DNA of 24,486 bases, taken from IMG/VR virus record IMGVR_UViG_3300008113_000979, positions 1-24,486 of that record, one strand, 5' to 3'. Under the pieces are notes generated by a model, which saw nothing but the letters and a program-made list of their open reading frames with translations, made no database searches and was not told where the DNA came from. A program made the position numbers and the translations under genes. Position 1 is the first letter of the stretch, and every line of letters starts with the position of its first letter. The stretch is from a virus. Positions 3,590-14,686 of the stretch are shown one piece after another.

Positions 3590-3606
3590 GGGGGCTCATC
3601 GCCCCC
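3590..3606 (-). terminator. Intrinsic terminator after the export region
   Basis: Read on the minus strand, GGGGGC and GCCCCC form a 6 bp all-GC stem around a 5-base loop, followed by ACTTTAATTTTAATGG. It sits 7 bases past the stop of the small lipoprotein gene and ends the export region. Confidence 0.8.
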
Positions 3607-3612
3607 TCTTAA

Positions 3613-3783
3613 TTACTTAGCTGAAACTGAATCAGCTGGAATTGCAGCTACAGTTGAATCTGTTGCTACTACTGAAGAATCAGCTACGGCTGTACTGTCA
3701 GTGTTTGTAGTTTCAACTGATGCATTTCCTCCACAAGCAACTAGCATAGTTGCAACTGCGAATACGAACATTACTTTTTTCAT
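3613..3783 (-). CDS. Small Ala/Ser/Thr/Val-rich lipoprotein, 56 aa
   Basis: A 56-residue frame starts at 3783. It has a lipoprotein signal with lipobox LVAC (Cys at about residue 17) followed by GGN. The mature 40 residues are almost only Ala, Ser, Thr, Val and Asp (for example TDSTAVADSSVVATDS), a flexible surface chain with a repeated TDST/ADS pattern. A Bacteroidota-type promoter (3804-3835) lies 21 bases upstream and a terminator lies just downstream, so it can be a single-gene unit, probably strongly expressed. Confidence 0.8.
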   Translation of the reverse strand: MKKVMFVFAVATMLVACGGNASVETTNTDSTAVADSSVVATDSTVAAIPADSVSAK

Positions 3784-3803
3784 AATAAATTATTTATTTG
3801 AAT

Positions 3804-3835
3804 TAAATATACGACAACATTTTGACCGAACCAAA
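3804..3835 (-). promoter_or_regulatory. Bacteroidota-type promoter
   Basis: On the minus strand TTTG is followed by 20 bases and TATATTTA, matching the Bacteroidota primary sigma pattern TTTG-N19-21-TAnnTTTG except for the last base. The 11-base core GTCGTATATTT recurs at 17102 and 20484, with a 10-base GTCGTATATT at 23586. It serves the small lipoprotein gene at 3783. Confidence 0.75.
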
Positions 3836-5197
3836 TTAGAATTGTAATTTAGAACCAATCATAAAGAAACTAAGCATAGGTGAACCTGGCACTGTTGATA
3901 CCATCAATTTATAGTCCATGTTTACTCCAAAGCGTTTACTTATCTTATATGAGTATCCACATCCAATTAACGAATTAATATTATAATTCCAAGTTGAACC
4001 TGTAGCTGTATTATACGAATAAGGTGATGCCATAACAAATACTCCTGGAGATAATGTTGTTTTTAGATTTACCTGATACGGTTTAGTCCAGAATGATGTT
4101 ATTGATGACACCATTGAGTATGAATATTTACCTGTTATTCCGTCTTTTAATTTAATATTAATATAAGCTAAGTTATAACCATACGTTCCTAATTTAGGAT
4201 GTGGTTTAATCCAGGTATAACCACCAAATGTCATGTTGGTACCTTTAACCCTAGCTACTGTGTATGAATATGCTTTAATTGCTTTTAACTGACCATCTTT
4301 AAATACTAAATCGCTTTTGTTAATTGATAAGGCAAACGATTTAAAATCCATCCATATCATTGAACTAACACCCCAACTAGATTCACCAGTTGCTGATGAT
4401 TGAGACATACCTAATGATAGTATAGGTGTAAAGCCACCTGTTGGGTTTTGAGCAGTAGTTAAATCCGAATTCATCAATATAGGATTCATTCGTAGTTGTT
4501 TCTTCTCATCTTTTTTTTCTTCCTTCTTTTCCTCTTTTTTCTCCTCCTTCTTTTCTTCCTTTTTTTCTTCTTTAGATTCAGATTTGCTTTCTTCTTTGCT
4601 TTCTGATTTAGATTCAGATTTGCTTTCGCTCTTGCTTTCGCTTGAACTTGTACTTTCTGATTTGCTCTCTGAGCTTGAGCCTGATGACGACGAAGACCCA
4701 GATGATGAGGATGATTGGGATGAGGATGACGAAGATGCTGAAGAGGAAGACGCTGAAGAGGCTGATGAGCTCGAAGCTGAGCTTGATGCAGCTGAGGAAG
4801 CGCTTGAGCTTGCTGCTGAACTTGCTGATGAACTCGCTGCGCTTGAAGCGGCTGATGAAGCCGCTGATGAGGCTGCTGATGCTGCTTGACTTGCTGCTTG
4901 CGTTACTGTATTTTGAACGGTTTGAGTTACTGTTTGAGATACTGGACATGCTGCTGAATTATACGCTGCGTATGTTGCTTGCAACCATGCTTGTAAGGCC
5001 CCACTTTGAACTTCTGCTGGGGTAAATGTTTTTACTTGGTTGTAAAACGATACTACAGCGTTGCCATTAATATAGGTTGTAGTTGCAATCTTAGTTTCAC
5101 CAGTACATTTATCTACAAACGTCTGAGTGAAGGTTTGGCCATTCGTTTTAAGGCAAACGAACAATAATATAATTACACTTACAACCCATTTTTTCAT
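3836..5197 (-). CDS. Secreted protein with Ser-rich linker and beta-barrel-like C-terminal domain
   Basis: The 453-residue product begins with a signal peptide (about residues 1-20, ending TNGQ). Residues 20-100 form a small domain with a CTGE motif. Residues 104-235 are low complexity and change in steps: Ala/Ser, pure Ser, Ser/Gly, Ser/Glu/Lys, then Glu/Lys. The last 215 residues alternate as amphipathic beta strands with Tyr, Trp and Ser and end in SKLQF, a terminal aromatic residue as in outer-membrane beta-barrels. I infer a C-terminal barrel or beta domain with an extended linker crossing the periplasm or displayed outside. The gene starts one base inside the stop of the CsgG-like gene (TAATG), which ties the two proteins together. 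Confidence 0.85.
   Translation of the reverse strand: MKKWVVSVIILLFVCLKTNGQTFTQTFVDKCTGETKIATTTYINGNAVVSFYNQVKTFTPAEVQSGALQAWLQATYAAYNSAACPVSQTVTQTVQNTVTQAASQAASAASSAASSAASSAASSSASSAASSSASSAASSSASSSSASSASSSSASSSSSSQSSSSSGSSSSSGSSSESKSESTSSSESKSESKSESKSESKEESKSESKEEKKEEKKEEKKEEKKEEKKDEKKQLRMNPILMNSDLTTAQNPTGGFTPILSLGMSQSSATGESSWGVSSMIWMDFKSFALSINKSDLVFKDGQLKAIKAYSYTVARVKGTNMTFGGYTWIKPHPKLGTYGYNLAYINIKLKDGITGKYSYSMVSSITSFWTKPYQVNLKTTLSPGVFVMASPYSYNTATGSTWNYNINSLIGCGYSYKISKRFGVNMDYKLMVSTVPGSPMLSFFMIGSKLQF
4505..4890. repeat. Trinucleotide-type low-complexity tract
   Basis: Degenerate triplet repeats encode the Ala/Ser to Ser to Glu/Lys linker of the secreted protein on the minus strand. The Glu/Lys part is nearly pure purine on the coding strand, and the Ser/Ala part is rich in AGC/TCA/GCA codons. 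The tract creates long false frames on both strands and should be prone to slippage and length change. Confidence 0.85.
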
Positions 5198-5913
5198 TAT
5201 TTGCTAAATATTCCCTTATCAACCATACGCTTTAAGATACGAGCACAAGCTATATCTAATGCTTTTTTGGTTGCTATTGAAATAGTTGATTGGTTAAATT
5301 TAACTGGATCAACTGTAGCATCTGATAGTAAAGTTAATTCACGTGTTGTTTTAGCTTCACCTAAACCTGATGCTCCGAATATTACTCCAGTTTCTGCATT
5401 TGTAAAACGAACTTGTAAACCCAAACGTGTTACTAATAAGTTTTTAACACCGTCTTTTAAATTTACTGTTTCATCTTCTGAGATAGAGTAGTCGTATACT
5501 TCAATAGTAACGAAGTATTCAGCTAGATTAATTTTACCTCTACCATCTAATTTATTTTCACTAATTCCCGCTTGTGATGCTTGGAATTGTTTTACCATTC
5601 TGTTCTTGATCTCAGTTTTGTCTTCAGTGAATTTGAAGCGATTTAGATTTTCTAAATACTCCATTGTAATATTAGCCACACCTAAACCAACACGTTTTTC
5701 CTTTAATTCAGGATACATTTCATACATTTCATCACTAATACCACACTTTAATATCTGAATTGGTATTTGCTTACCATCATAATCTAGAAACTGAGATATG
5801 TCAATCGATGTTTCGAATGATGCTTTATACTGTTCTGTTTTTGTGCTTCCCACAGTTTGGGCACCCGCACTTATGGTCAATAATAGACCTAATAATATTA
5901 ATAAATTTTTCAT
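5197..5913 (-). CDS. CsgG-like outer-membrane assembly protein
   Basis: The 238-residue protein starts with a signal peptide (hydrophobic 3-14, cleavage near SAGAQ at about 19); there is no lipobox Cys, unlike classical CsgG. The body resembles the CsgG family: VGLGVANITMEYL (about 76-88), a central helix, a strand region (FVTIEVYDYSIS), a glycine-rich VIFGASGLGEA stretch and a C-terminal helix ACARILKRMVDKG. In curli systems CsgG forms a nonameric secretion pore in the outer membrane. Here the following gene encodes the Ser-rich secreted protein, with a one-base stop/start overlap, and the preceding gene encodes a lipoprotein. I infer that it helps export or anchor its neighbour. The family match is moderately strong; pore formation is not shown. 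Confidence 0.7.
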   Translation of the reverse strand: MKNLLILLGLLLTISAGAQTVGSTKTEQYKASFETSIDISQFLDYDGKQIPIQILKCGISDEMYEMYPELKEKRVGLGVANITMEYLENLNRFKFTEDKTEIKNRMVKQFQASQAGISENKLDGRGKINLAEYFVTIEVYDYSISEDETVNLKDGVKNLLVTRLGLQVRFTNAETGVIFGASGLGEAKTTRELTLLSDATVDPVKFNQSTISIATKKALDIACARILKRMVDKGIFSK

Positions 5914-5916
5914 ACA

Positions 5917-6243
5917 TTATTTGTTATTAAATTTTCTAATTGGAGCTCTATTATCATTTCTTGGTGGTGGTAATGGAGTCCATCTTGGTTGTGGTTGAAC
6001 TCTAGGTCTTGGATTTACAATTATAGGTCTAGGATTAACTATAATAGGTTGTCTAAATCTATAATTCCAATCCCACCACAATGGAGTTGACATTATAGGA
6101 GCACTATAGTATACGTCATCATAAATAACTCGTTTTCTAACTTCAACTAATTTAGTACTGTCTTTAGGATCAATGAAAACATATTTTGTAGTAGTACACC
6201 CTGTTAATAATACCCCTAGTAATATTGTTAATAGTTTTTTCAT
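5917..6243 (-). CDS. Proline-rich lipoprotein, 108 aa
   Basis: The N-terminus has a lipoprotein signal with lipobox LLTGC (Cys at about residue 16), then TTTKYVF. The middle is rich in Tyr and Trp, and residues 66-95 are rich in Pro, Arg and Asn with an exact tandem repeat of PIIVNPR. The C-terminus is basic. This looks like a cell-envelope lipoprotein with an extended chain. It is the first gene after the 6256-6283 terminator, followed at 3 bases by the CsgG-like gene, so it may act with it, as CsgE/F-type partners do, though I see no homology to those. Confidence 0.75.
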   Translation of the reverse strand: MKKLLTILLGVLLTGCTTTKYVFIDPKDSTKLVEVRKRVIYDDVYYSAPIMSTPLWWDWNYRFRQPIIVNPRPIIVNPRPRVQPQPRWTPLPPPRNDNRAPIRKFNNK

Positions 6244-6255
6244 TATATAATAAAT

Positions 6256-6283
6256 TAAAAAAAAGGGAACCGAAGTTCCCTTT
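6256..6283 (-). terminator. Strong intrinsic terminator with UUCG loop
   Basis: On the minus strand AAAGGGAAC-TTCG-GTTCCCTTT is a perfect 9 bp stem with a UUCG tetraloop followed by a run of T. It ends the unit with the holin-like gene at 6289 and separates it from the lipoprotein/CsgG-like unit. Confidence 0.9.
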
Positions 6284-6288
6284 GGTTA

Positions 6289-6534
6289 TTATTCTTTATC
6301 TCCTTTTCTTTTGTTGATAAATTTATCAACTGATGCAATACCAAATGCACCTAATACGATAACCATGAATCCGTCAAATACAAACTCGTGAATAGGCATT
6401 TCTTTACCTACTAAACCAGTTGCAATATCAGCAATCAAGGTGATTACCATCATCACGAATGCTGTAAAGCCAACTACTGATTTTTCATTGATTGTGTTTG
6501 AATCATCAAATAGATTTTTCAAAAATTGTTTCAT
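6289..6534 (-). CDS. Holin-like two-helix membrane protein, 81 aa
   Basis: The 81-residue protein has two predicted transmembrane helices, about residues 19-41 (VVGFTAFVMMVITLIADIA) and 51-68 (VFDGFMVIVLGAFGIASV), with a charged C-terminus (INKRKGDKE). Size, two helices and basic tail fit small phage holins, which form inner-membrane holes at lysis. No endolysin is present in the window. It lies between a larger membrane protein and a strong terminator. A role in the export region instead of lysis is an alternative. Confidence 0.7.
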   Translation of the reverse strand: MKQFLKNLFDDSNTINEKSVVGFTAFVMMVITLIADIATGLVGKEMPIHEFVFDGFMVIVLGAFGIASVDKFINKRKGDKE

Positions 6535-6552
6535 ACTTTTAATTTTTATTGG

Positions 6553-7167
6553 TTAGTGGGATTCGTCCCAAGCGTCTTTCAACAACCCACACTTTTGACA
6601 CTCTAATTCACCATCATTGTCTGAGTCACCCCATTCATGTTGGCAGTATCTATGTGCTTTTATTTCATGTTCTAATTTTAATTTAGCCATTTCTTGTTCA
6701 TGTTCTTGTTGATCGGCTTCTAATTTTTGGTCATGTTCTTGTTGGTCAGCTGCTAACTCGTAGTTTTGTTTGTTTTCAACTACAGCTAAATCTCTAGCTG
6801 CTGCTGCACCTGCTACGAATGCATCTGGAATTAATGGAGTTACTGGTTTGTTGCTTTCTTTAATGTCATTAACACTACCTAATGCTACACCGTCTTCCTC
6901 ATCCATTTTCTGAACTAACATTTTATCTTTGTCTGTATCACTGAACCAGTAATCAATAATCTTACCATATGAACCAATGAAGGCACCTAATAATAACATT
7001 AATAATTCTTTCCATGCTGCTGCCATTGGTGTTTGTAAACTAATAGCGGCAAATATACCAGCTATGATTACTATAAAACCACCCAATACCATTGCTGTGA
7101 TGTACCATCTGCGGGACATCATTTTATTTAGTAGTTCTCTAAATCCTGTATTTGGTTGTTGACTCAT
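6553..7167 (-). CDS. Membrane protein with coiled coil and zinc-ribbon tail, 204 aa
   Basis: Residues 20-42 and about 50-68 form two transmembrane helices (ending LLLGAFIGSYGKIIDYWF, a pattern seen in phage holin-type proteins). A polar region follows, then a coiled-coil segment (about 135-170) with a twofold repeat of ADQQEHDQKLE-type sequence, and a C-terminal metal-binding motif CQHEW...CQKCG that suggests a zinc ribbon. I infer an inner-membrane protein with a cytoplasmic zinc-binding tail. The combination of a holin-like N-terminus and zinc tail is unusual. The ATG overlaps the upstream stop as TAATG. Confidence 0.7.
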   Translation of the reverse strand: MSQQPNTGFRELLNKMMSRRWYITAMVLGGFIVIIAGIFAAISLQTPMAAAWKELLMLLLGAFIGSYGKIIDYWFSDTDKDKMLVQKMDEEDGVALGSVNDIKESNKPVTPLIPDAFVAGAAAARDLAVVENKQNYELAADQQEHDQKLEADQQEHEQEMAKLKLEHEIKAHRYCQHEWGDSDNDGELECQKCGLLKDAWDESH

Positions 7168-7274
7168 TACTTATACTTTTTTAAAACTTCGTTATTTTGT
7201 TTTATTTGCTTTGCTTTTTTCATTCCAGAACGTTTACTACGTCTTGGTTTAGGTTTAGGTTGTGCGTTTGCCAT
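7167..7274 (-). CDS. Very basic 35-residue peptide
   Basis: The frame starts at 7274 (MANAQPKPKPRRSKRSG) and ends KKYK. Nearly half of the residues are Lys or Arg. Its TAA shares a base with the ATG of the next gene, which supports translation. It may bind nucleic acid or acidic lipids. I do not recognise a family. Confidence 0.55.
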   Translation of the reverse strand: MANAQPKPKPRRSKRSGMKKAKQIKQNNEVLKKYK

Positions 7275-7277
7275 AGA

Positions 7278-7583
7278 TTACCATTGAGCTGGTTTCTCTT
7301 TGAATTCGTCACCTTCTTTCTTCTTAACTGGAGCTGCTGCTGGTTTTTCAACTACTTTTTCTTTAACAACTACAGTCTTACCACCTGCTGCTTGTTGTTG
7401 TTGGTTTGAGTTAGTAATATTGATTACTGGAGCTGCTTGTTGTACTGGAGCTGCTTTTTCTTCTTCACCACCAGTTAATTTAGTAGTTACCCATCCACCT
7501 ACACCTAAGGTGATAGTTGAGGCCAATCCGATAAAAATATTTTTAAGGGATGTACCTGTGCTTTCTTGTTTTTCTTCTGACAT
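7278..7583 (-). CDS. Single-pass membrane protein with Gln/Ala/Lys-rich tail, 101 aa
   Basis: A polar start (MSEEKQESTGTSLKN) is followed by one hydrophobic segment at about residues 16-36 (IFIGLASTITLGVGGWVTT). The tail is low complexity: Glu/Lys, Gln-rich (NSNQQQQAA), then Val/Lys/Glu and Pro/Ala/Lys. This looks like an inner-membrane protein with an extended soluble tail, possibly spanning the periplasm. It sits between twin lipoproteins and a basic peptide in the same operon. Function unknown. Confidence 0.7.
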   Translation of the reverse strand: MSEEKQESTGTSLKNIFIGLASTITLGVGGWVTTKLTGGEEEKAAPVQQAAPVINITNSNQQQQAAGGKTVVVKEKVVEKPAAAPVKKKEGDEFKEKPAQW

Positions 7584-7595
7584 ATACTTTTATTT

Positions 7596-7967
7596 TTATA
7601 GTTTATTAAAATCTGTTATTCCTAATTGGTTATTATTTACATCGTATAAAGCAATTCTATAAGCTGATGTTGGTAGAGCATTAGTGTATACTTTTAGTAT
7701 ATTGTCACCTGCAACTACACTTACAGTTTCTTTAGATACTACTCTATTCGAGATATCAAATATTTTAATCGTAACTGTGCCTGCTGTTTCCAGCTTCACA
7801 TTCATTAGTACTTCAGTAGTTACAAATGGGCTTTGTAATTTAATCCCTACTGAATTTGCTATCTTTAAACTCTCAGCCATTACTGGTGGTTGAGGAGTCG
7901 GGATGTCTAATTTGCGGCAAGCTGATAATGCTATTGAGCATATCAGTACCAATAATAGTTTCTTCAT
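7596..7967 (-). CDS. Lipoprotein with beta domain, twin copy A, 123 aa
   Basis: A lipoprotein signal ends in the lipobox ALSAC at about residue 17, followed by RKLDIPTPQPP. The rest is a beta-sandwich-like sequence, with TVTIKIFDISNRVV and YRIALYDVNNNQ strands, resembling the C-terminal sorting-type domains of Bacteroidota secreted proteins in pattern. The gene immediately upstream encodes a related lipoprotein (CRKLDVPAPP), so the two are tandem duplicates. They are likely anchored in the outer membrane. The binding partner is unknown; the two large secreted proteins upstream are candidates. Confidence 0.75.
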   Translation of the reverse strand: MKKLLLVLICSIALSACRKLDIPTPQPPVMAESLKIANSVGIKLQSPFVTTEVLMNVKLETAGTVTIKIFDISNRVVSKETVSVVAGDNILKVYTNALPTSAYRIALYDVNNNQLGITDFNKL

Positions 7968-7970
7968 CTT

Positions 7971-8309
7971 TTAATTTATTATAATGGTTGTTTTATTGAC
8001 TTGGTTTCCACCTTCATCATCTAAAATCAGATATAAATATTTAACAGGTAGCGTCCTAGTGTAGATTTTAATAGTGTTTGTACCTACTTTACCATTAATT
8101 CGTTCCTTAGTTATGACCTGTTCCGTATCTTTATCTACTAATTTAATTATGTATACTCCCGCCTTATCTAGTTTAAATGATATATCACTGTTGTTAACTA
8201 CAGTGGATTGAGTAGAACTAAATACATCTACTATCTGGGGTGGTGCAGGGACGTCTAATTTTCTACATCCAATTAACAATAATGATATTAATAATAACTT
8301 TTTCATCAT
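7971..8309 (-). CDS. Lipoprotein with beta domain, twin copy B, 112 aa
   Basis: A lipoprotein signal with lipobox LLIGC at about residue 15 is followed by RKLDVPAPPQI, nearly identical to the start of the twin at 7596-7967. The body again alternates as beta strands (KAGVYIIKLVDKDT, TNTIKIYTRTLP). The tandem pair has diverged in the body but kept the mature N-terminus, suggesting that this part matters for sorting or binding. The ATG of a second Met one codon downstream is also possible. The start overlaps the stop of the lectin-domain gene. Confidence 0.75.
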   Translation of the reverse strand: MMKKLLLISLLLIGCRKLDVPAPPQIVDVFSSTQSTVVNNSDISFKLDKAGVYIIKLVDKDTEQVITKERINGKVGTNTIKIYTRTLPVKYLYLILDDEGGNQVNKTTIIIN

Positions 8310-10600
8310 TTAATCTTTACATTAAGTTTATTTAAATTAATTCCTAATGTTTCTACATTCTGTATTGATATTAATCCTAACACGTTATTTATAGTTGTTT
8401 TAGGTTTAAATACTATTTTATACCCAATATTAGATATTGAACCACCAGATGTATTTAATGATCCTACGCCTACTGATGAACCGTTATTTCTACCAAAGTT
8501 AGTAGATTGATTATTACTAAATTCAACCTTCGAATAATCTAATACTGAGTTGTCATAGTGTACTATAAATTGAGTGGCTCCTATTTCATTGCCATTTGGA
8601 ATTAATTTTATAGTTGCTATAATACTATCACCTACTTTTTCCATCATAATATCAGCTTCAGTAGTGCCAGCTGAATTTGTAGAAAACGCGGACATAGATT
8701 TTATATCTGATGTAGACATATTTGCTGCATTAGGTATAAAACTTGTTGGTTGGGATGAATGTGATAAATTAACATCTCCTTTCCAAGTTATATCTAAATT
8801 ATAAGCATTCAATATTCCATTTGTAAATGTAAATGGATAATCAATTCCAATAGGTAATGTGAATGTATTCCAATTTTGTTTTGTAATATTATCAAAATTC
8901 GTGGATGGTATAATTTTTATAGCATCTGCTATACTAGGAGTTGTTGACCACAATGATGTTGTTCCTTGTAAGTGTGTTAATAACAAATAACAATCTCTTT
9001 CATCAAATAAATTATCACCATTTATATCGGCATTATCAAATTGAATACCAGATGTAAAATATTTACTCTCATCTCCCATTATTCCTCTATCTGCAAATTC
9101 TCTAAATGCCAAATACACATCAGATACAGTAACAATACTTGATAATAAATTTGTATTTTGTGTTGCTGTCAAACTTCCAAATTCCAATTTATGAAATTTA
9201 TTCATTCTATTCTGCACAAATGTAAATTCCGCACTTAATCCCCAGAAGAAACTGGCTCGTCTTATATTAGATGAAAACGATGAACCTGCAAAATTAAATT
9301 GAGTTGGTGTATAAATCCAATATGCTGCCCAAGTTCCATCATCCCATTGATATGTTACTGGTCCATCCCATAAATCAAATAATTTCAAACTTGTAATACT
9401 ATTTGCTGAAACGCCTGTACCTGTAAATTCTCTTTTATCAATTAAGATCTGGTATCGTTGGTTTTGTGGTTCATAATCATATACTACGCACCATTCAACT
9501 TGTCCACCTATTGTATTTGCTTTAAATCCGGTTCCATTAATCTGTGTAGTATCCATTTGTGATGTCATGTTCACTCTACCAATACCATTCAAATTCACAT
9601 AAGGATTATTTGATGAAAATGTAGTATTATCATTTGATGTTAGTATTCTAGTTTTAAACATTGTTTCATCAACATTATTTCCAAAATTAAAATTAAATTC
9701 AGCTCGTAGTATATTACCATTTGAATGGTTTACGCTATTAGAATAAAATTCAGTAAATGTTGCATCATCGGGGTTAGTCCAAGTTCCAAATTCAACTACA
9801 TAAGCACAACTAAAATGATTAGGTAAATCGTTCCATTGAGAACCACCACCCCATTTAGTCACTGCGTAATCTTCATTGCCACTATTGTTTGGTTCACCGG
9901 GTGCCCAATTGTTGTACTGACCAACTATGTTTCCGGCGGTTTGTCCGTTTGATGTTTTAATAAGTGTTCCCGCTTCAGGTCCAGCATCAATTCTCCATTG
10001 TGCCTCAACTATTTCATCGGTTAGTGCAAACCAAATACTAGATTGTGGAACATTAGCAAATATAAAAGCATCTTCATCGGATGAAGTAATTGTTACCAAG
10101 TATCCTTGCTGTCCTTTGAAAGTTTGTTGCGATGAAAGTAGTTTAGCATTTGAATATGTTGCACCGGTTGATATTGGTCTATAAAAGTGTCCGTTTGATG
10201 GATTATAGAAATACCCAGTTGGATTAACAGTTGCCGATACTGATATTTGTATGTTACCTGCGGTAGCATTTGTGTTTACTTTTAACGTTGCTAATGCATT
10301 GTTTATATTAGCCATTGTGCCTGTAAACGCCAAACGAGTTTTGTTACCCGTAAAGTTAAATCCAGATGCTGGTGTAAGACCCGTTGTTGTACTTATATTA
10401 AATGTTGTTCCGGCTGGTGCTTGTGGTAAACCAATAGCACAAAGTAAAGTTGCGGTTGAATTAAATCCACTTAAAGAAAATCCACTAGCATCTTGAGCTG
10501 CTGTATTAATAATAAAAGATTTGGGTTCGGGAGCAGTCACTGACTGTCCAAACCCAAAGCTTGTTATTAAGATAAATAATATAACTAGTAAGCTTCTCAT
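8306..10600 (-). CDS. Large secreted protein with C-type lectin, dockerin-like and cohesin-like parts, 764 aa
   Basis: A signal peptide (about 1-19, ending FGFGQ) is followed by a beta-rich region to 125 and a C-type lectin-like domain at about 130-272. The lectin part shows WAPGEPNN (232-239), with the EPN sugar/calcium motif, and WND (256-258). A beta-rich region follows, then a dockerin-like calcium motif, NADINGDNLFDERDCYLL (about 523-540). A WKGD..SHSS motif (about 610) and a cohesin-like beta domain (about 650-764) end the protein. I infer a cell-surface or released carbohydrate-binding protein. It is a paralogue of the next upstream gene in its C-terminal half. A secreted lectin in a phage is unusual; host attachment, superinfection exclusion or biofilm binding are possible roles. 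Confidence 0.85.
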   Translation of the reverse strand: MRSLLVILFILITSFGFGQSVTAPEPKSFIINTAAQDASGFSLSGFNSTATLLCAIGLPQAPAGTTFNISTTTGLTPASGFNFTGNKTRLAFTGTMANINNALATLKVNTNATAGNIQISVSATVNPTGYFYNPSNGHFYRPISTGATYSNAKLLSSQQTFKGQQGYLVTITSSDEDAFIFANVPQSSIWFALTDEIVEAQWRIDAGPEAGTLIKTSNGQTAGNIVGQYNNWAPGEPNNSGNEDYAVTKWGGGSQWNDLPNHFSCAYVVEFGTWTNPDDATFTEFYSNSVNHSNGNILRAEFNFNFGNNVDETMFKTRILTSNDNTTFSSNNPYVNLNGIGRVNMTSQMDTTQINGTGFKANTIGGQVEWCVVYDYEPQNQRYQILIDKREFTGTGVSANSITSLKLFDLWDGPVTYQWDDGTWAAYWIYTPTQFNFAGSSFSSNIRRASFFWGLSAEFTFVQNRMNKFHKLEFGSLTATQNTNLLSSIVTVSDVYLAFREFADRGIMGDESKYFTSGIQFDNADINGDNLFDERDCYLLLTHLQGTTSLWSTTPSIADAIKIIPSTNFDNITKQNWNTFTLPIGIDYPFTFTNGILNAYNLDITWKGDVNLSHSSQPTSFIPNAANMSTSDIKSMSAFSTNSAGTTEADIMMEKVGDSIIATIKLIPNGNEIGATQFIVHYDNSVLDYSKVEFSNNQSTNFGRNNGSSVGVGSLNTSGGSISNIGYKIVFKPKTTINNVLGLISIQNVETLGINLNKLNVKIK

Positions 10601-12270
10601 TATTCTACTACAAGTTCTACTTTCTTACCAGCCGCATCTACTGCATCTGCTAATACGAAGAAGAATAACCCTGCAGTATTACTTACTGGTACTTTTGGTG
10701 TGAATATTAATTTATATGGAGTGCCTGTTTTAATTCTAGCTGTCTTTAACTGATCAATAGATCCAAATGTTAATCTACCTTCATCTTTAGTTGAGAAGTT
10801 AGTGATTGTAGAGCCAGTATTGAATATTACATTTTCTAAAGTTAATTTAGTTGAATCGTAGTTCATTACTACTTGTAAACCTGCTAAACCTTCTTTAGTT
10901 AATCCACAAGCTAAAACTACTTTACCATTCTCAATTGTTGAAATAATATTTAAACTAGCTTTCTCTACTTCAGTCTTTTCATAAGCATTACTCATAGTAG
11001 AAGTCATTGCCATAGTTTTAATTGTAGCTATGTCTGCTGTTCCTGGATTTGCTTTGTTAGTATAGATGCCTGCAGCTATTCTTGCAGCAATAGTATCTGG
11101 ATGAGATGAATGTGACCAATCTAAATCACCAGCCCAAGCAAATACAGCATCTACTGTTTGGTTTGAATTAGTAATGTATACTCTGTTTTTAGTTGTTCCA
11201 TCCAACCAACTTTGATTTAATAAACCACTATGCCATCTCCAAGATGTAGCTGTTGATGTTGGAATAAACGCTTGAGCTGATACATCTTGTCCCATTACAT
11301 AGGCAAATGAATAATAAGCGTCTGATTCGTTAAATGTGTTATCGTTTTTAGTTACATTGCCTATTTTCTTTTCTAATACTGGACGAGTGAAGAAAGTAGC
11401 ATTACCACTAATATCAGTTTGAGAATGTCCTAAGAATGCCTTATAAGCATCTGATACAGTAATTACGTTGTTCATCCACTGCTTTTGAGAAGCAGGACTA
11501 ACAAATACACCTAAGCTATCACCTACTTTTACTTGTGTTGTAAATGTAGCTTCACCACTAGCATCTAATGGTAATTGAGCAATTGGTTGTTGTGACCAGT
11601 CAATATCACCTGTTCCATCGTTCTTTAATCTCATCAACTGAACATTATGATCAGTAATATTATATCCTGAAGGGAATAATACTCTTACTTTAAATTGAGA
11701 TGTGTTACCGGTTACGTTAGTTAATGAAGCGTTAATGTTTGGTCTTGTGATTGGTGAAATATAAACTGAAGCATCGTTGATAGCATATGCTAAGTCTAAT
11801 TTATGAATGTCGTTATATGCACCTAAATCTTTAATAACATATTTTTGAGTTGCAATATCGCCATTGATAGACGCATCGGCTCTTTGTACTGTTAATTGAC
11901 CTACATTCCAATCAGCATTGGTAGCATAAGACCAAGGTGAGGCCTGATACTGCGCGTATAATGAAGTATCTGATGCAGTATTAGATGGAGTGAATTTGTA
12001 GTTGTTCCAGTTTGTAAAATATGTTTGTACTGATGTTCCTTGAGAGAATACAGTACTGTTTGGTACTAATGTTAGTGCCTTGTTGTTAAATTGATATCTT
12101 AACCAGAAGTAACGTGGTGTTGTTGTACCTCTAGTTACAGTATATTTCACAGTAACTGTATCACCTACTTTAACATTAGATGAAGGAGTTACTGTTTGGT
12201 TGACGACTAACTGTGCGTCAGCTGCTAGGGACATCAATAATACCCCTATAATTACTATTAATTTTTTCAT
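10600..12270 (-). CDS. Large secreted protein with cohesin/dockerin-like parts, 556 aa
   Basis: A signal peptide (about 1-20, LAADAQ) is followed by an N-terminal beta domain with VKVGDTVTVKYTVT, typical of cohesin-like or PKD-like folds. A central region carries two dockerin-like helices, ITVSDAYKAFLG (about 272-283) and FNESDAYYSFAYVMG (about 318), without the full calcium loop. Then comes WAGDLDWSHSS (about 388) and a C-terminal cohesin-like domain (about 440-556). The VSDxYxAF, GD..xSHSS and C-terminal parts match the 764-residue neighbour, so the two arose by duplication. I infer an exported structural or adhesive protein. The stop and the next start overlap by one base (TAATG). Confidence 0.8.
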   Translation of the reverse strand: MKKLIVIIGVLLMSLAADAQLVVNQTVTPSSNVKVGDTVTVKYTVTRGTTTPRYFWLRYQFNNKALTLVPNSTVFSQGTSVQTYFTNWNNYKFTPSNTASDTSLYAQYQASPWSYATNADWNVGQLTVQRADASINGDIATQKYVIKDLGAYNDIHKLDLAYAINDASVYISPITRPNINASLTNVTGNTSQFKVRVLFPSGYNITDHNVQLMRLKNDGTGDIDWSQQPIAQLPLDASGEATFTTQVKVGDSLGVFVSPASQKQWMNNVITVSDAYKAFLGHSQTDISGNATFFTRPVLEKKIGNVTKNDNTFNESDAYYSFAYVMGQDVSAQAFIPTSTATSWRWHSGLLNQSWLDGTTKNRVYITNSNQTVDAVFAWAGDLDWSHSSHPDTIAARIAAGIYTNKANPGTADIATIKTMAMTSTMSNAYEKTEVEKASLNIISTIENGKVVLACGLTKEGLAGLQVVMNYDSTKLTLENVIFNTGSTITNFSTKDEGRLTFGSIDQLKTARIKTGTPYKLIFTPKVPVSNTAGLFFFVLADAVDAAGKKVELVVE

Positions 12271-12272
12271 AG

Positions 12273-12923
12273 TTATTTTTCGAATAGTTTAGTGATTAGT
12301 TTATCACAACCTTTCTTTAGAGCATTGCTTAATGATGTTTGATTAAATTTTCCACCTTGATCTACAAGTAAAGTAGACATAGAAATTTCAGATGAAGATT
12401 CTTCAACAATTATTTCCTTTTCTTTTATACCGTCTTTGTATAGGATTCCTTTTAAACGAATAACTACTTCATCTTCACCTTTATGGAATACTGAAATACT
12501 TTTCTTTGTAGTTAGTACGTCTAAATAGATAATTTCAACACGTAGTTTATTTTCAGCATCTGGAGATAGATTATATCCTTTGTCTTGTAAGTACTCTTCT
12601 AGTACGTTTTTAACACCGAATTCTAAATTGCGGTTACCTGCTAATTTACCAACAACTACTTTGTTAGTAACCTTTTCAACGTAGATATGTTCATCTGCGT
12701 TATACCAGATATTACCAGGATGGTTTTTGAATGTACCATCCATTCTCCAAGTAATTTCATTTGCTATTTGGGTTGCATATTCACTTCTACCACTAAATTC
12801 CAAGAATACCATGAAGACTTGGAATAGAAAAGCAAGGCCTATAAATGATAAGGCACTTATTAAGAATAAATGGAATAGTTTGTCACGTAGGCTGATGGCC
12901 AGAGATGTGGCTCTTTGTTTCAT
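12273..12923 (-). CDS. Membrane-anchored envelope protein, possibly CsgG/FlgO-like, 216 aa
   Basis: Residues 1-16 are polar and basic, then a hydrophobic segment at about 17-42 (FHLFLISALSFIGLAFLF) anchors the protein as a signal anchor. The body is a mixed alpha/beta domain with VVVGKLAGNRNLEFGVKNVLEEYL (helix after strand), charged beta strands (DEVVIRLKGILYK) and a final helix NALKKGCDKLITKLFEK. That layout, and the last helix in particular, recalls the CsgG-like protein at 5197-5913, so I suggest a shared fold with low certainty. It is the first gene of the export operon, 3 bases before the 556-residue secreted protein. Confidence 0.65.
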   Translation of the reverse strand: MKQRATSLAISLRDKLFHLFLISALSFIGLAFLFQVFMVFLEFSGRSEYATQIANEITWRMDGTFKNHPGNIWYNADEHIYVEKVTNKVVVGKLAGNRNLEFGVKNVLEEYLQDKGYNLSPDAENKLRVEIIYLDVLTTKKSISVFHKGEDEVVIRLKGILYKDGIKEKEIIVEESSSEISMSTLLVDQGGKFNQTSLSNALKKGCDKLITKLFEK

Positions 12924-12988: not shown

Positions 12989-13005
12989 AAAAGATGAACA
13001 ATAAG

Positions 13006-13312
13006 TGGAGATGACGGGAGTCGAACCCGTGTCTTGCTAAGTATTCATAATACCAGCATATCACATGCTTAGATCTGATAAATCTGATCAGTAGGGGCGA
13101 ACCGATATGGTCGACTTCCACCACCTGATTTATGACATCAGGAAACTAATTCACAGTCCTTATTTAATGAGTCGACCTACGAACGCCATAAGGTCGTCGA
13201 AGGTCATAGTTGACAATTCGTCATTTATTTGTTTGTAGCTTTTTAAGACGACACTACCGAACGTCTGCATGTGGTACTACCAATCGCATAGCAATCAATA
13301 CCAAACATCCCC
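13006..13312 (-). ncRNA. ssrA: tmRNA (ssrA), complete, with unusual tag
   Basis: The 5' end GGGGATG (13312-13306) pairs with CATCTCC at the 3' end (13013-13007), followed by A; CCA is not encoded. The T-arm is CGGGTTCGACTCCCG. The first pseudoknot is visible: AGACG pairs with CGTCT, and its loop GTAGT pairs with GCTAC in the AAAAAGCTAC stretch. Eleven to twelve bases later, with U at -5 and A at -4, the resume codon is GAC at 13222-13220. The frame then encodes DELSTMTFDDLMAFVGRLIK, with stop TAA at 13162-13160. tmRNA plus SmpB rescues stalled ribosomes and tags the product. The usual degradation end LAA is absent. A hairpin CGACCT/AGGTCG lies inside the tag frame. It sits 5 bases past the stop of the gene at 13318. 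Confidence 0.92.
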
Positions 13313-13317
13313 ATATT

Positions 13318-13641
13318 TTAAAGAACTTCTAGTTTTGGCTTACGGCCACGTTTCTTACCTTCCAGTATCTTTTTAATCTCAGCACATAGCTCATATTCTT
13401 CCATTGCAATCAAATCGTTCATGCAATTGCCTAATAATTCTTTGTATTGTACTTTTTCTATACTGAATGTAAGTTGATCCATGCTTTTAAACGTAATATC
13501 AAATATGTCTATTTGATCTTTGTCTCGTTTGTAAGCACTAAGGACACATTTAACCATTTTCATGATTAAGTCAGGATTACGGTCTTTCAACATCCCGTAA
13601 AATTCCTGCGCGTTTTTAAGACTCAAACAATGGCACGCCAT
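13318..13641 (-). CDS. Small protein with UVR-like helix and AT-hook-like tail, 107 aa
   Basis: I place the start at the ATG at 13641 (MACHCLSLKN); a longer frame starts inside tRNA-Leu and is an artefact. The N-terminus holds CHC. The body is helical and ends with EEYELCAEIKKILEGKKRG, similar to UVR motifs (Tyr, acidic and paired helices) that mediate contacts in UvrB, ClpC and McsA proteins. The last part, KKRGRKPK, resembles an AT-hook. A protein at 21509-21811 has a comparable final helix (YTKCIEIRDLIKQI). Function unknown; it lies between tRNA-Leu and tmRNA in one transcript. Confidence 0.7.
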   Translation of the reverse strand: MACHCLSLKNAQEFYGMLKDRNPDLIMKMVKCVLSAYKRDKDQIDIFDITFKSMDQLTFSIEKVQYKELLGNCMNDLIAMEEYELCAEIKKILEGKKRGRKPKLEVL

Positions 13642-13653
13642 GTCTATAATTAT

Positions 13654-13743
13654 TGGTGCCCCCAGCGGGAATCGAACCCGCACGGACTTTTTCGGTCCAC
13701 AGGATTTTAAGTCCTGCGTGTCTACCTATTCCACCACAAGGGC
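13654..13743 (-). tRNA. tRNA-Leu(UAA), CCA encoded
   Basis: Acceptor GCCCTTG (13743-13737) pairs with TGGGGGC; T-arm GCGGGTTCGATTCCCGC; anticodon loop CTTAAAA gives UAA. It has a long variable arm, as in Leu tRNAs, and ends ACCA. It is processed from a transcript with flanking coding genes. Confidence 0.95.
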
Positions 13744-13770: not shown

Positions 13771-14013
13771 TTATTTTTTATTAGTTAATTTAGATTCTAA
13801 TCTATCAAGACGTGAATCCATTTGACGATAGATATTTTGTGTTTCTTCGTTTATTGTTTTATAAACATTTTCGATTTCACGAGATAACGATATTTCATTA
13901 TGCTCAATTTGTTTTTTTACTTTATTTACCTTAACGAATGCGTAAACAGCAACTATTGCCGTAGCAATAACCACCACAGACGCTATCCCTAAAACGAATG
14001 ATAGTATTTCCAT
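13771..14013 (-). CDS. Single-pass membrane protein with coiled coil, 80 aa
   Basis: The real start is the ATG at 14013 (MEILSFVLGIASVVVIATAI); a longer frame reads back into the tRNA-like gene. Residues 5-27 form a transmembrane helix, followed by VKVNKVKKQIEHNEISLSRE and a heptad-rich coiled coil to the basic end (RLDRLESKLTNKK). Size and layout resemble phage i-spanins or small envelope proteins. It is embedded between two RNA genes. Confidence 0.75.
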   Translation of the reverse strand: MEILSFVLGIASVVVIATAIVAVYAFVKVNKVKKQIEHNEISLSREIENVYKTINEETQNIYRQMDSRLDRLESKLTNKK

Positions 14014-14051
14014 AATTTGTTTCTCCTTATATGTCAAAGAACAGTAATTTG

Positions 14052-14208
14052 CTGTAAGGGTTGGAATCGAACCAACACGCGGCGATTCAATAAACGACAT
14101 TTGTGCTGCAGCTTGTGGTCAACCCTTATCGTTTATCTATCTCGAGCTCCGCACCCACGAGACGAGTGGGCGTGTCTGCCATAGCCTAGGCTATTTCACC
14201 ACCTTACA
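14052..14208 (-). tRNA. Oversized class II tRNA-like gene, about 157 nt
   Basis: Acceptor TGTAAGG (14208-14202) pairs fully with CCTTACA (14059-14053); the T-arm is GTTGG-TTCGATT-CCAAC. The D-arm resembles tRNA-Leu (GTGAAAT...GGCAGACAC) but carries an extra palindrome AGCCTAGGCT. The anticodon-position hairpin is CCCAC-TCGTCTC-GTGGG, with C instead of U at position 33, so the anticodon (GUC if read normally) is uncertain. The variable region is about 80 bases, closed by GCGG/CCGC and containing an 8 bp stem ATAAACGA/TCGTTTAT. It could be a degenerate tRNA, a tRNA with an insertion, or a tRNA-mimic RNA. Its 5' end overlaps the stop of the gene at 14204. Confidence 0.6.
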
Positions 14209-14434
14209 ATTTTCTCTTACTACCACGTCTTCTTGCTTCCTCAGCTTCTTTATAAATACGAATCCAGGTTAGAGTAATATCTACCGGAGCTAATATCCAG
14301 CACATAACAATTAAACCTATACTTTCAAGTCCTGGTGATATGCCTAATCCACCTGCCATAACGTCCCTATTCCATTTTTTAATAGACATTATAATACAGT
14401 AAATAAAACAAGCAACATAATAAGTCCAGAACAT
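14204..14434 (-). CDS. Two-helix membrane protein, 76 aa
   Basis: Residues 1-17 (MFWTYYVACFIYCIIMS) and about 38-58 (ESIGLIVMCWILAPVDITLTW) are hydrophobic, with a glycine-rich loop between and a basic Arg/Lys tail (ARRRGSKRKL). The TAA lies inside the acceptor stem of the tRNA-like gene, an overlap of coding and RNA sequence. Two helices and a basic tail would fit a holin or anti-holin, but the function is not shown. Confidence 0.65.
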   Translation of the reverse strand: MFWTYYVACFIYCIIMSIKKWNRDVMAGGLGISPGLESIGLIVMCWILAPVDITLTWIRIYKEAEEARRRGSKRKL

Positions 14435-14437
14435 AAA

Positions 14438-14647
14438 TTATTGTTTAAAGTGTTTTTCAAGTGCTTCGATCTTATCTTCAGCATCAACTAACATTTGTAA
14501 TGCTTCTTCAGCATTGTTGTAGAAGTCTTTTGTTGAATGATCACCTATCCCTGCTGGGTGGTTCGACAACAAATCTAAAGTTAGTAATGCTTTTGATTTT
14601 TCAGCCATTGCTGATGTCATAAGCATATCGTATAATTCTTTTTTCAT
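14438..14647 (-). CDS. Hypothetical helical protein, 69 aa
   Basis: A soluble, mostly helical acidic protein (MKKELYDMLMTSAMAEKSKA) with a Gly/His-containing loop (HPAGIGDHSTKDF) in the middle and an acidic C-terminal helix. It is 3 bases from the next gene and shares its operon. I do not recognise a family. Confidence 0.65.
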   Translation of the reverse strand: MKKELYDMLMTSAMAEKSKALLTLDLLSNHPAGIGDHSTKDFYNNAEEALQMLVDAEDKIEALEKHFKQ

Positions 14648-14686
14648 ATAATGTCAATTTACAATCTTATTTTGACTTCTCCAAAT

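Follow-up and report, generated by a model that had tools for sequence, protein, structure and literature searches.

A phage block of exported proteins with a CsgG-fold protein, an outer-membrane barrel and lectin cargo probably rebuilds the surface of infected Bacteroidota

Curli-type (type VIII) secretion modules with CsgG, CsgF and CsgA/B are known from pelagiphages and OM43 phages, and superinfection defence, aggregation and lysis timing have been proposed as their roles (PMC9599517, PMC9004378). Phage-encoded cargo of the type IX secretion system (T9SS) is known in Cryophage and crAss-BACON phages, whose proteins with T9SS sorting domains are presumably exported by the host T9SS (PMC7468147, PMC6949934). 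The PelB-PelC exporter combines a CsgG-type periplasmic ring protein with an outer-membrane barrel. FapF and the type Va autotransporters have an N-terminal domain, a helix and a C-terminal 12-strand barrel. In cellulosome scaffolds, secreted proteins that appear to be surface-anchored bear cohesin and dockerin-like modules. The phage gene block described here resembles each of these systems in part. Like the curli modules, it has a phage-borne CsgG-fold protein (CSGG) among exported genes, and the same roles can be proposed for it. Unlike them, it has no CsgF or curlin repeats, its CSGG lacks a lipobox and full hairpins, the partner is a 12-strand barrel (BARREL), the cargo is of lectin and cohesin type, and the hosts are Bacteroidota. 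The T9SS-tailed proteins that relatives of the block also encode are of cohesin type and belong to a fixed gene block that includes CSGG and BARREL; they are not variable enzymes or BACON proteins. BARREL, whose pairing with CSGG is inferred from gene adjacency, differs from PelB in having 12 strands and no TPR region. It differs from FapF and the type Va autotransporters in a low-complexity linker of ~110 residues, and no sequence homology to them was detected. The cargo departs from the cellulosome in having C-type lectins instead of enzymes as tips, and is probably anchored by a T9SS tail or by lipoproteins. A literature search that covered few subscription papers found no report of a module of CsgG fold, barrel and lectin, which is weak evidence for novelty. 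The probable effect of the block is to remake the bacterial surface during infection, perhaps for exclusion of rival phages or changed adhesion. We put at roughly 60% the probability that it is a phage-encoded module for surface display on the infected cell that partly uses the host T9SS.

The window, by which we mean the whole stretch of 24,486 nucleotides analysed, is a 24.5-kb virus entry (IMG/VR IMGVR_UViG_3300008113_000979). It encodes 24 tRNAs and has ThyX, TROVE, RNase H-like, ClpP-like and glycosyltransferase genes. A 64.9-kb contig with 99.8% identity over the block comes from the same phage; among isolates, Flavobacterium phage immuto (160 kb) comes closest. A T4-type Gp23 major capsid protein is present in 12 of 15 block-carrying records checked, most of them 130-326 kb in length. 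Because of the tRNAs, the virus record and Gp23 in these relatives, the window is assigned to a T4-like Bacteroidota phage and not to a bacterial contig, the origin that the original prediction had named as fatal to itself.

The block comprises 12 co-directional ORFs on the minus strand (window 3613-12923). Most intergenic distances fall between -4 and +18 bases and three are 45-110, and the edge at 3590 is a GC hairpin (3590-3606). It had been predicted that nearly every gene of the block would carry a signal peptide, lipobox or membrane segment, with two large secreted proteins, four lipoproteins and several membrane proteins among the products, and a simple signal census bears this out. Signal peptide I was assigned to 3836-5197, 5197-5913, 8306-10600 and 10600-12270, lipoboxes to 3613-3783, 5917-6243, 7596-7967 and 7971-8309, and membrane segments to 6289-6534, 6553-7167 and 12273-12923. 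One hydrophobic segment in 7278-7583 was seen by eye and is under the census threshold. Few window ORFs beyond the block score in the census. The clustering is not due to chance in full-size relatives: signal peptides occur in 8 of 11 block ORFs against 13 of 192 genome-wide in a 161-kb relative (G012; hypergeometric p 5e-9), and in 6 of 7 against 14 of 221 in immuto (p 1e-7), all counted by an in-house heuristic and not by SignalP. About half of all signal-peptide genes in these two ~160-kb genomes fall within the block. A possible terminator hairpin, AAAGGGAAC-TTCG-GTTCCCTTT followed by a T run (6262..6283, minus strand), may split the block into two transcripts; it comes from a consensus scan that found 13 such sites versus 6.6 (sd 2.7) in shuffles.

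Related loci were collected from IMG/VR with the window CSGG (489 related stretches) and with the immuto protein (113), and 160 viral loci were kept in this search for the block in other phages. CSGG is present in 160/160 by construction, since the loci were found by a CSGG search; the 160/160 for a BARREL relative has no such cause. TM7278, a single-TM protein, accompanies the two in 150/160. CSGG and BARREL lie on the same strand in 161/161 pairs scored, with BARREL downstream in 160 and less than 600 bases apart in 143. LPS12273, a membrane-anchored protein, is found in 121 loci and LECTIN-type proteins in 120. TM7278, CSGG and BARREL thus form a core that persists as a unit amid turnover of the flanking genes, although all these counts are among related phages and partly reflect shared ancestry. 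Among 50,697 GenBank phage records the block is found in Immutovirus only; tblastn of the immuto BARREL and of TM7278 against GenBank phages returned immuto only, or nothing. A pattern-based scan of 84,980 bacterial species genomes found CSGG in two MAG contigs, one of which is also the only carrier among 299 genomes of the host family. Since bacterial genomes yield only these two contigs, the gene set is a phage set and not a host set.

CSGG (5197..5913, minus strand) is predicted to be a CsgG-fold periplasmic protein with a cleavable signal peptide. Its AlphaFold2 model (pLDDT 76.6, pTM 0.72) has CsgG topology, the top Foldseek matches are CsgG (E 4e-6), and VIA-align superposes the model on CsgG with Z 11.2 (172 residues aligned, rmsd 4.1). 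The CsgG likeness first noticed from the letters therefore holds for the predicted fold. The fold class, CsgG/PelC-type, is firm in these models, and the family assignment is less so because the VIA-align margin over Cj1090c (Z 10.5) and PelC (Z 9.8) is small; LptE comes next. The best viral-structure match is an uncultured phage protein annotated as CsgG (E 4e-6), with no other outstanding. At the sequence level, Pfam CsgG (PF03783) gave no match in the window, and its cut-off was passed in only one of 14 phage records (21 vs 20.8 bits). Two of 48 CSGG family members match it at E <= 0.1 (best 1.8e-4), and a sequence-only PDB search with the CSGG profile found no credible relative. Against E. 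coli CsgG the profile aligned only 20 residues (E 0.05), around the motif GLQVRFTNAETG, which pairs with AVNLRVVNVSTG of the E. coli protein. CSGG is 83-100% identical within the window clade and 53% identical to immuto. Its signal peptides appear to be real, since their sequence drifts while their character is kept (mean majority identity 0.47) and the mature part is strongly conserved (0.77). An A-x-[AGS]|Q-type cleavage pattern occurs in 42 of the 48 members; CSGG has neither a lipobox nor a lipidated N-terminal Cys. Hairpin regions are present, with ~7 charged and ~1 aromatic residues each, whereas the two hairpins of E. coli CsgG have 3 and 6 charged and 3 and 5 aromatic residues. With hairpins that are shorter than in CsgG and carry more charge, CSGG would be a periplasmic ring rather than a pore.

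BARREL (3836..5197, minus strand) is predicted to consist of a signal peptide, an N-terminal domain of ~60 aa with two invariant Cys (31, 84), a helix (88-122), a Ser/Glu/Lys linker and a C-terminal outer-membrane barrel. The barrel spans residues 240-452, ends in Phe as the last residue and has 12 strands modelled confidently by AlphaFold2. FapF is the top Foldseek match (E 5e-7), and VIA-align gives Z 23.4 with NalP (rmsd 2.3, 223 aligned); NalP, other autotransporters and FapF are the closest structures. The aligned range with NalP begins at residue 86, at the helix, where model pLDDT is only ~30-50. These comparisons agree with the barrel-like protein originally noted in the block, and the signal peptide and C-terminal 12-strand barrel give BARREL the type Va autotransporter layout. 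A sequence-only PDB search with its profile found no credible relative, and the N-terminal domain, sought in other ORFs, was present in BARREL only. Twelve-strand barrels are common, so the fold tells the location of the protein and not its function. Contact between CSGG and BARREL is a guess from the gene pairing and the parallel with PelB-PelC. In 15 loci (for instance L005:905-1795 and L048:5709-6599) a further BARREL-like protein is encoded that is shorter and lacks the N-terminal region.

The remaining small proteins are membrane proteins and lipoproteins, all on the minus strand. TM7278 (7278..7583), the third core gene, has a Pro/Gln-rich tail and a conserved C-terminal Trp. TM6289 (6289..6534) is a small two-TM protein that is holin-like in layout only, and TM6553 (6553..7167; 89/163 loci) has an acidic tail and a CxH...CxxC-type C-terminus. 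LPS12273 (12273..12923) appears to contain a YajG-type domain (Lipoprotein_16, PF03923, 27.3 bits, cut-off 25), and several of its relatives are signal-peptide forms. Four putative lipoproteins were recognized by their lipoboxes: LPP3613 (3613..3783), of 56 aa, Ser/Thr/Asp-rich and with relatives in 41/163 loci; the Pro/Arg-rich LPP5917 (5917..6243), with relatives in 13 loci; and LPP7596 (7596..7967) and LPP7971 (7971..8309), whose families are paralogous (hhalign prob 99, E 3e-20). LPP7596, directly upstream of TM7278, has a domain that is weakly similar to a T9SS sorting domain. It is the only Por_Secre_tail match in the window (E 0.004, under cut-off) and matches DUF3244 at E 3e-4, also under cut-off; hhalign aligns it with phage T9SS tails at prob 76 (E 2e-5). 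The tails match LPP7971 (prob 37) and a 120-aa lipoprotein family (prob 31) weakly. Pfam and PHROGs searches of single window proteins yielded few matches other than those to lectin, cohesin and Lipoprotein_16. Cor and Rz spanin identities suggested by PHROGs were dropped, as those matches covered essentially only the signal peptide.

The block had also been predicted to have its own cargo, and LECTIN (8306..10600, minus strand) and COH2 (10600..12270, minus strand), which both carry signal peptides, fit this description. In LECTIN, Lectin_C matches at 23.3 bits (cut-off 22.6), and this C-type lectin domain shows both the EPN and the WND motif (EPNNSGNEDYAVTKWGGGSQWND). The protein also carries a single dockerin-like Ca loop, and a cohesin-like domain at its C-terminus scores 23.4 bits, just under the cut-off of 24.1. 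COH2 has candidate cohesin-like domains (E 0.0064, under cut-off). Cohesin is clearly over cut-off in the cargo of relatives, while Dockerin_1 is under cut-off in the members examined. Among 64 cargo proteins surveyed, cohesin was found in 29, C-type lectin in 24, T9SS tails in 17 and dockerin in 6; a dockerin-like loop occurs in 30 against 3.9 expected, and EPN...WND is conserved among block lectins. In immuto, g13 combines a lectin with a dockerin-like loop, and g15 a cohesin with a T9SS tail (TIGR04183, 44.8 bits, cut-off 23; PF18962, 34.6 bits, cut-off 27). The counterparts of g14 and g15 are fused in one protein in L115, which ties the subunits together. A 634-aa protein of L116 likewise has a T9SS sorting domain (PF18962, 38.1 bits). 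With the Pfam profile, 8 of 14 phage records have a T9SS tail over cut-off, a single one in each genome, and it lies within the block. A local T9SS-tail profile matched in 76 loci, and the best 40 of the 76 matches end no more than 4 residues from the C-terminus.

The two clades differ in this respect. The gene that lies upstream of the core in the immuto clade has a type A T9SS sorting domain at its end. In the window no such domain is over cut-off, and sub-threshold matches occur on LPP7596 and LPP7971 only; across the window clade, block matches are also sub-threshold, on LPP7596 or its counterparts. Small lipoproteins, one of them weakly T9SS-like, appear to hold the place of the T9SS-tailed gene. 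In those cases in which sequence reveals a route for the cargo, this is the host type IX system and not CsgG.

From these features we infer a ring-barrel assembly, cohesin-dockerin chaining and surface display. The CSGG ring would work in the periplasm beneath the 12-strand outer-membrane BARREL, and TM7278 would link the two to the inner membrane. Together with the lipoproteins, these three proteins would assemble the large secreted cargo at the cell exterior or anchor it there. This cargo would be modular, its C-type lectin tips being connected by modules of cohesin and dockerin-like type. Export and anchoring of the cohesin subunit would fall to the host T9SS in the immuto clade, through the type A tail of that subunit. 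In the window clade its place would be taken by the small lipoproteins, of which one has a degenerate T9SS-like domain. A stronger version makes the block a new envelope machine, with a CsgG-fold ring docked on the barrel, an inner-membrane tether, a cellulosome-like chain of C-type lectins linked by cohesin and dockerin, and either clade-specific T9SS hijack or lipoprotein anchors; this is tentative, and we hold it possible but doubtful.

That the block could remodel the host surface, as was originally suggested, is supported as its likely purpose by the export signals, their clustering, the predicted folds and the cargo domains. Gliding-surface adhesins travel by the T9SS. In F. columnare, phage receptors are believed to belong to the gliding machinery (PMC7345892). 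Since flavobacterial phage resistance and receptors are tied to the gliding surface (PMC7345892), we infer that the purpose would first be exclusion of superinfecting phages that use T9SS or gliding-surface receptors, and second altered adhesion; adhesion or glycan capture would fit nearly as well.

Capture of nutrients or polysaccharides, in which the lectins and barrel would help the infected cell to take up algal or other glycans, agrees with the EPN motif of LECTIN, with an exported nuclease encoded near the block in relatives, and with a TonB-dependent receptor and lipoprotein partner inserted next to CSGG in six relatives. However, six of 160 loci is a small share and the core has no glycoside hydrolase, and we consider this unlikely as the main function. 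A lysis module is an unlikely reading as well. In it, the CsgG-like protein and barrel would perforate or destabilize the outer membrane late in infection and the two-TM proteins would be holins, as the layouts of TM6289 and TM6553 allow; a lysis-timer role has been proposed for CsgG of OM43/SAR11 phages (PMC9004378). But a GH19 lysin-type gene and a PF05105 holin are encoded elsewhere in immuto, at 43.7-44.8 kb, ~30 kb from the block, which adjoins replication genes, and lysis leaves the lectin, cohesin and T9SS-tailed cargo unexplained.

The original prediction of a curli-type export unit with its own cargo stands for the CsgG fold, the barrel, the exported block and the cargo, but not for the curli type. 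CsgF and curlin-repeat profiles gave nothing over cut-off in 14 phage records, which include the window (itself a fragment), immuto and relatives of 131-326 kb, while both profiles match in an E. coli control; the block therefore appears to be no curli system. In a true type VIII unit, CSGG would itself form the outer-membrane pore through which LECTIN and COH2 leave. This reading would suit the fold and the two large signal-peptide proteins of the window that have no T9SS tail, but the missing CsgF, curlin repeats and lipobox and the short, charged hairpins with ~1 aromatic residue make it very improbable. C-type lectin folds are found in phage tail proteins, but virion components such as receptor-binding lectins are the least credible reading, given the cleavable signal peptides and lipoboxes, and given that the immuto block lies ~65 kb from the nearest baseplate genes, the baseplate, tail and head genes starting at ~82 kb. 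Structure predictions of virion tail parts devoid of secretion features, which would have spoken against the original prediction, did not come up. Gene position and signal peptides are thus what rank the lysis and virion readings low.

A surface display module would mean a defined cell-surface programme for a large group of Bacteroidota phages that comprises hundreds of contigs but has hardly been cultured, with a single isolate genus in GenBank. It opens to experiment the ways in which phages employ lectins and the type IX system to govern who attaches to a cell or infects it, and immuto with its Flavobacterium host is an existing laboratory pair.

Several other genes lie in or near the block in relatives. 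L153:16045-18237 encodes a large secreted protein with a CHU_C T9SS type B signal (2.8e-17) and a SprB repeat, similar to a gliding adhesin. The TonB-dependent receptor at L035:5913-9580 (OMP_b-brl_3 7.8e-27, Plug 1.8e-8) lies with its lipoprotein partner among the block genes, and the pair is also inserted in L066, L067, L071, L072 and L082. The exported nuclease is a DNA/RNA non-specific endonuclease (PF01223) with a signal peptide and has relatives in 31 loci (examples are L083:9935-10510, L021:12779-13378 and L042:12644-13243). Right after the block in L116, a 199-aa protein (14406-15002) has a YkuD-like motif by eye and no Pfam match.

The window itself contains a phage-encoded tmRNA (13003-13312, minus strand) that was missed by ARAGORN and scores 81.5 bits with RF00023 (gathering 47). 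Its likely tag frame is ...NDELSTMTFDDLMAFVGRLIK*, in which the usual ALAA ending is absent. A TROVE-domain (Ro60-like) protein (15510-17048, minus strand) adjoins the tRNA array. The called start of the minus-strand ORF 13318-13683 falls within a tRNA-Leu (13654-13743), and that of ORF 13771-14100 (minus strand) resembles tRNA 3' sequence by eye, so the true starts of both are further downstream than called.
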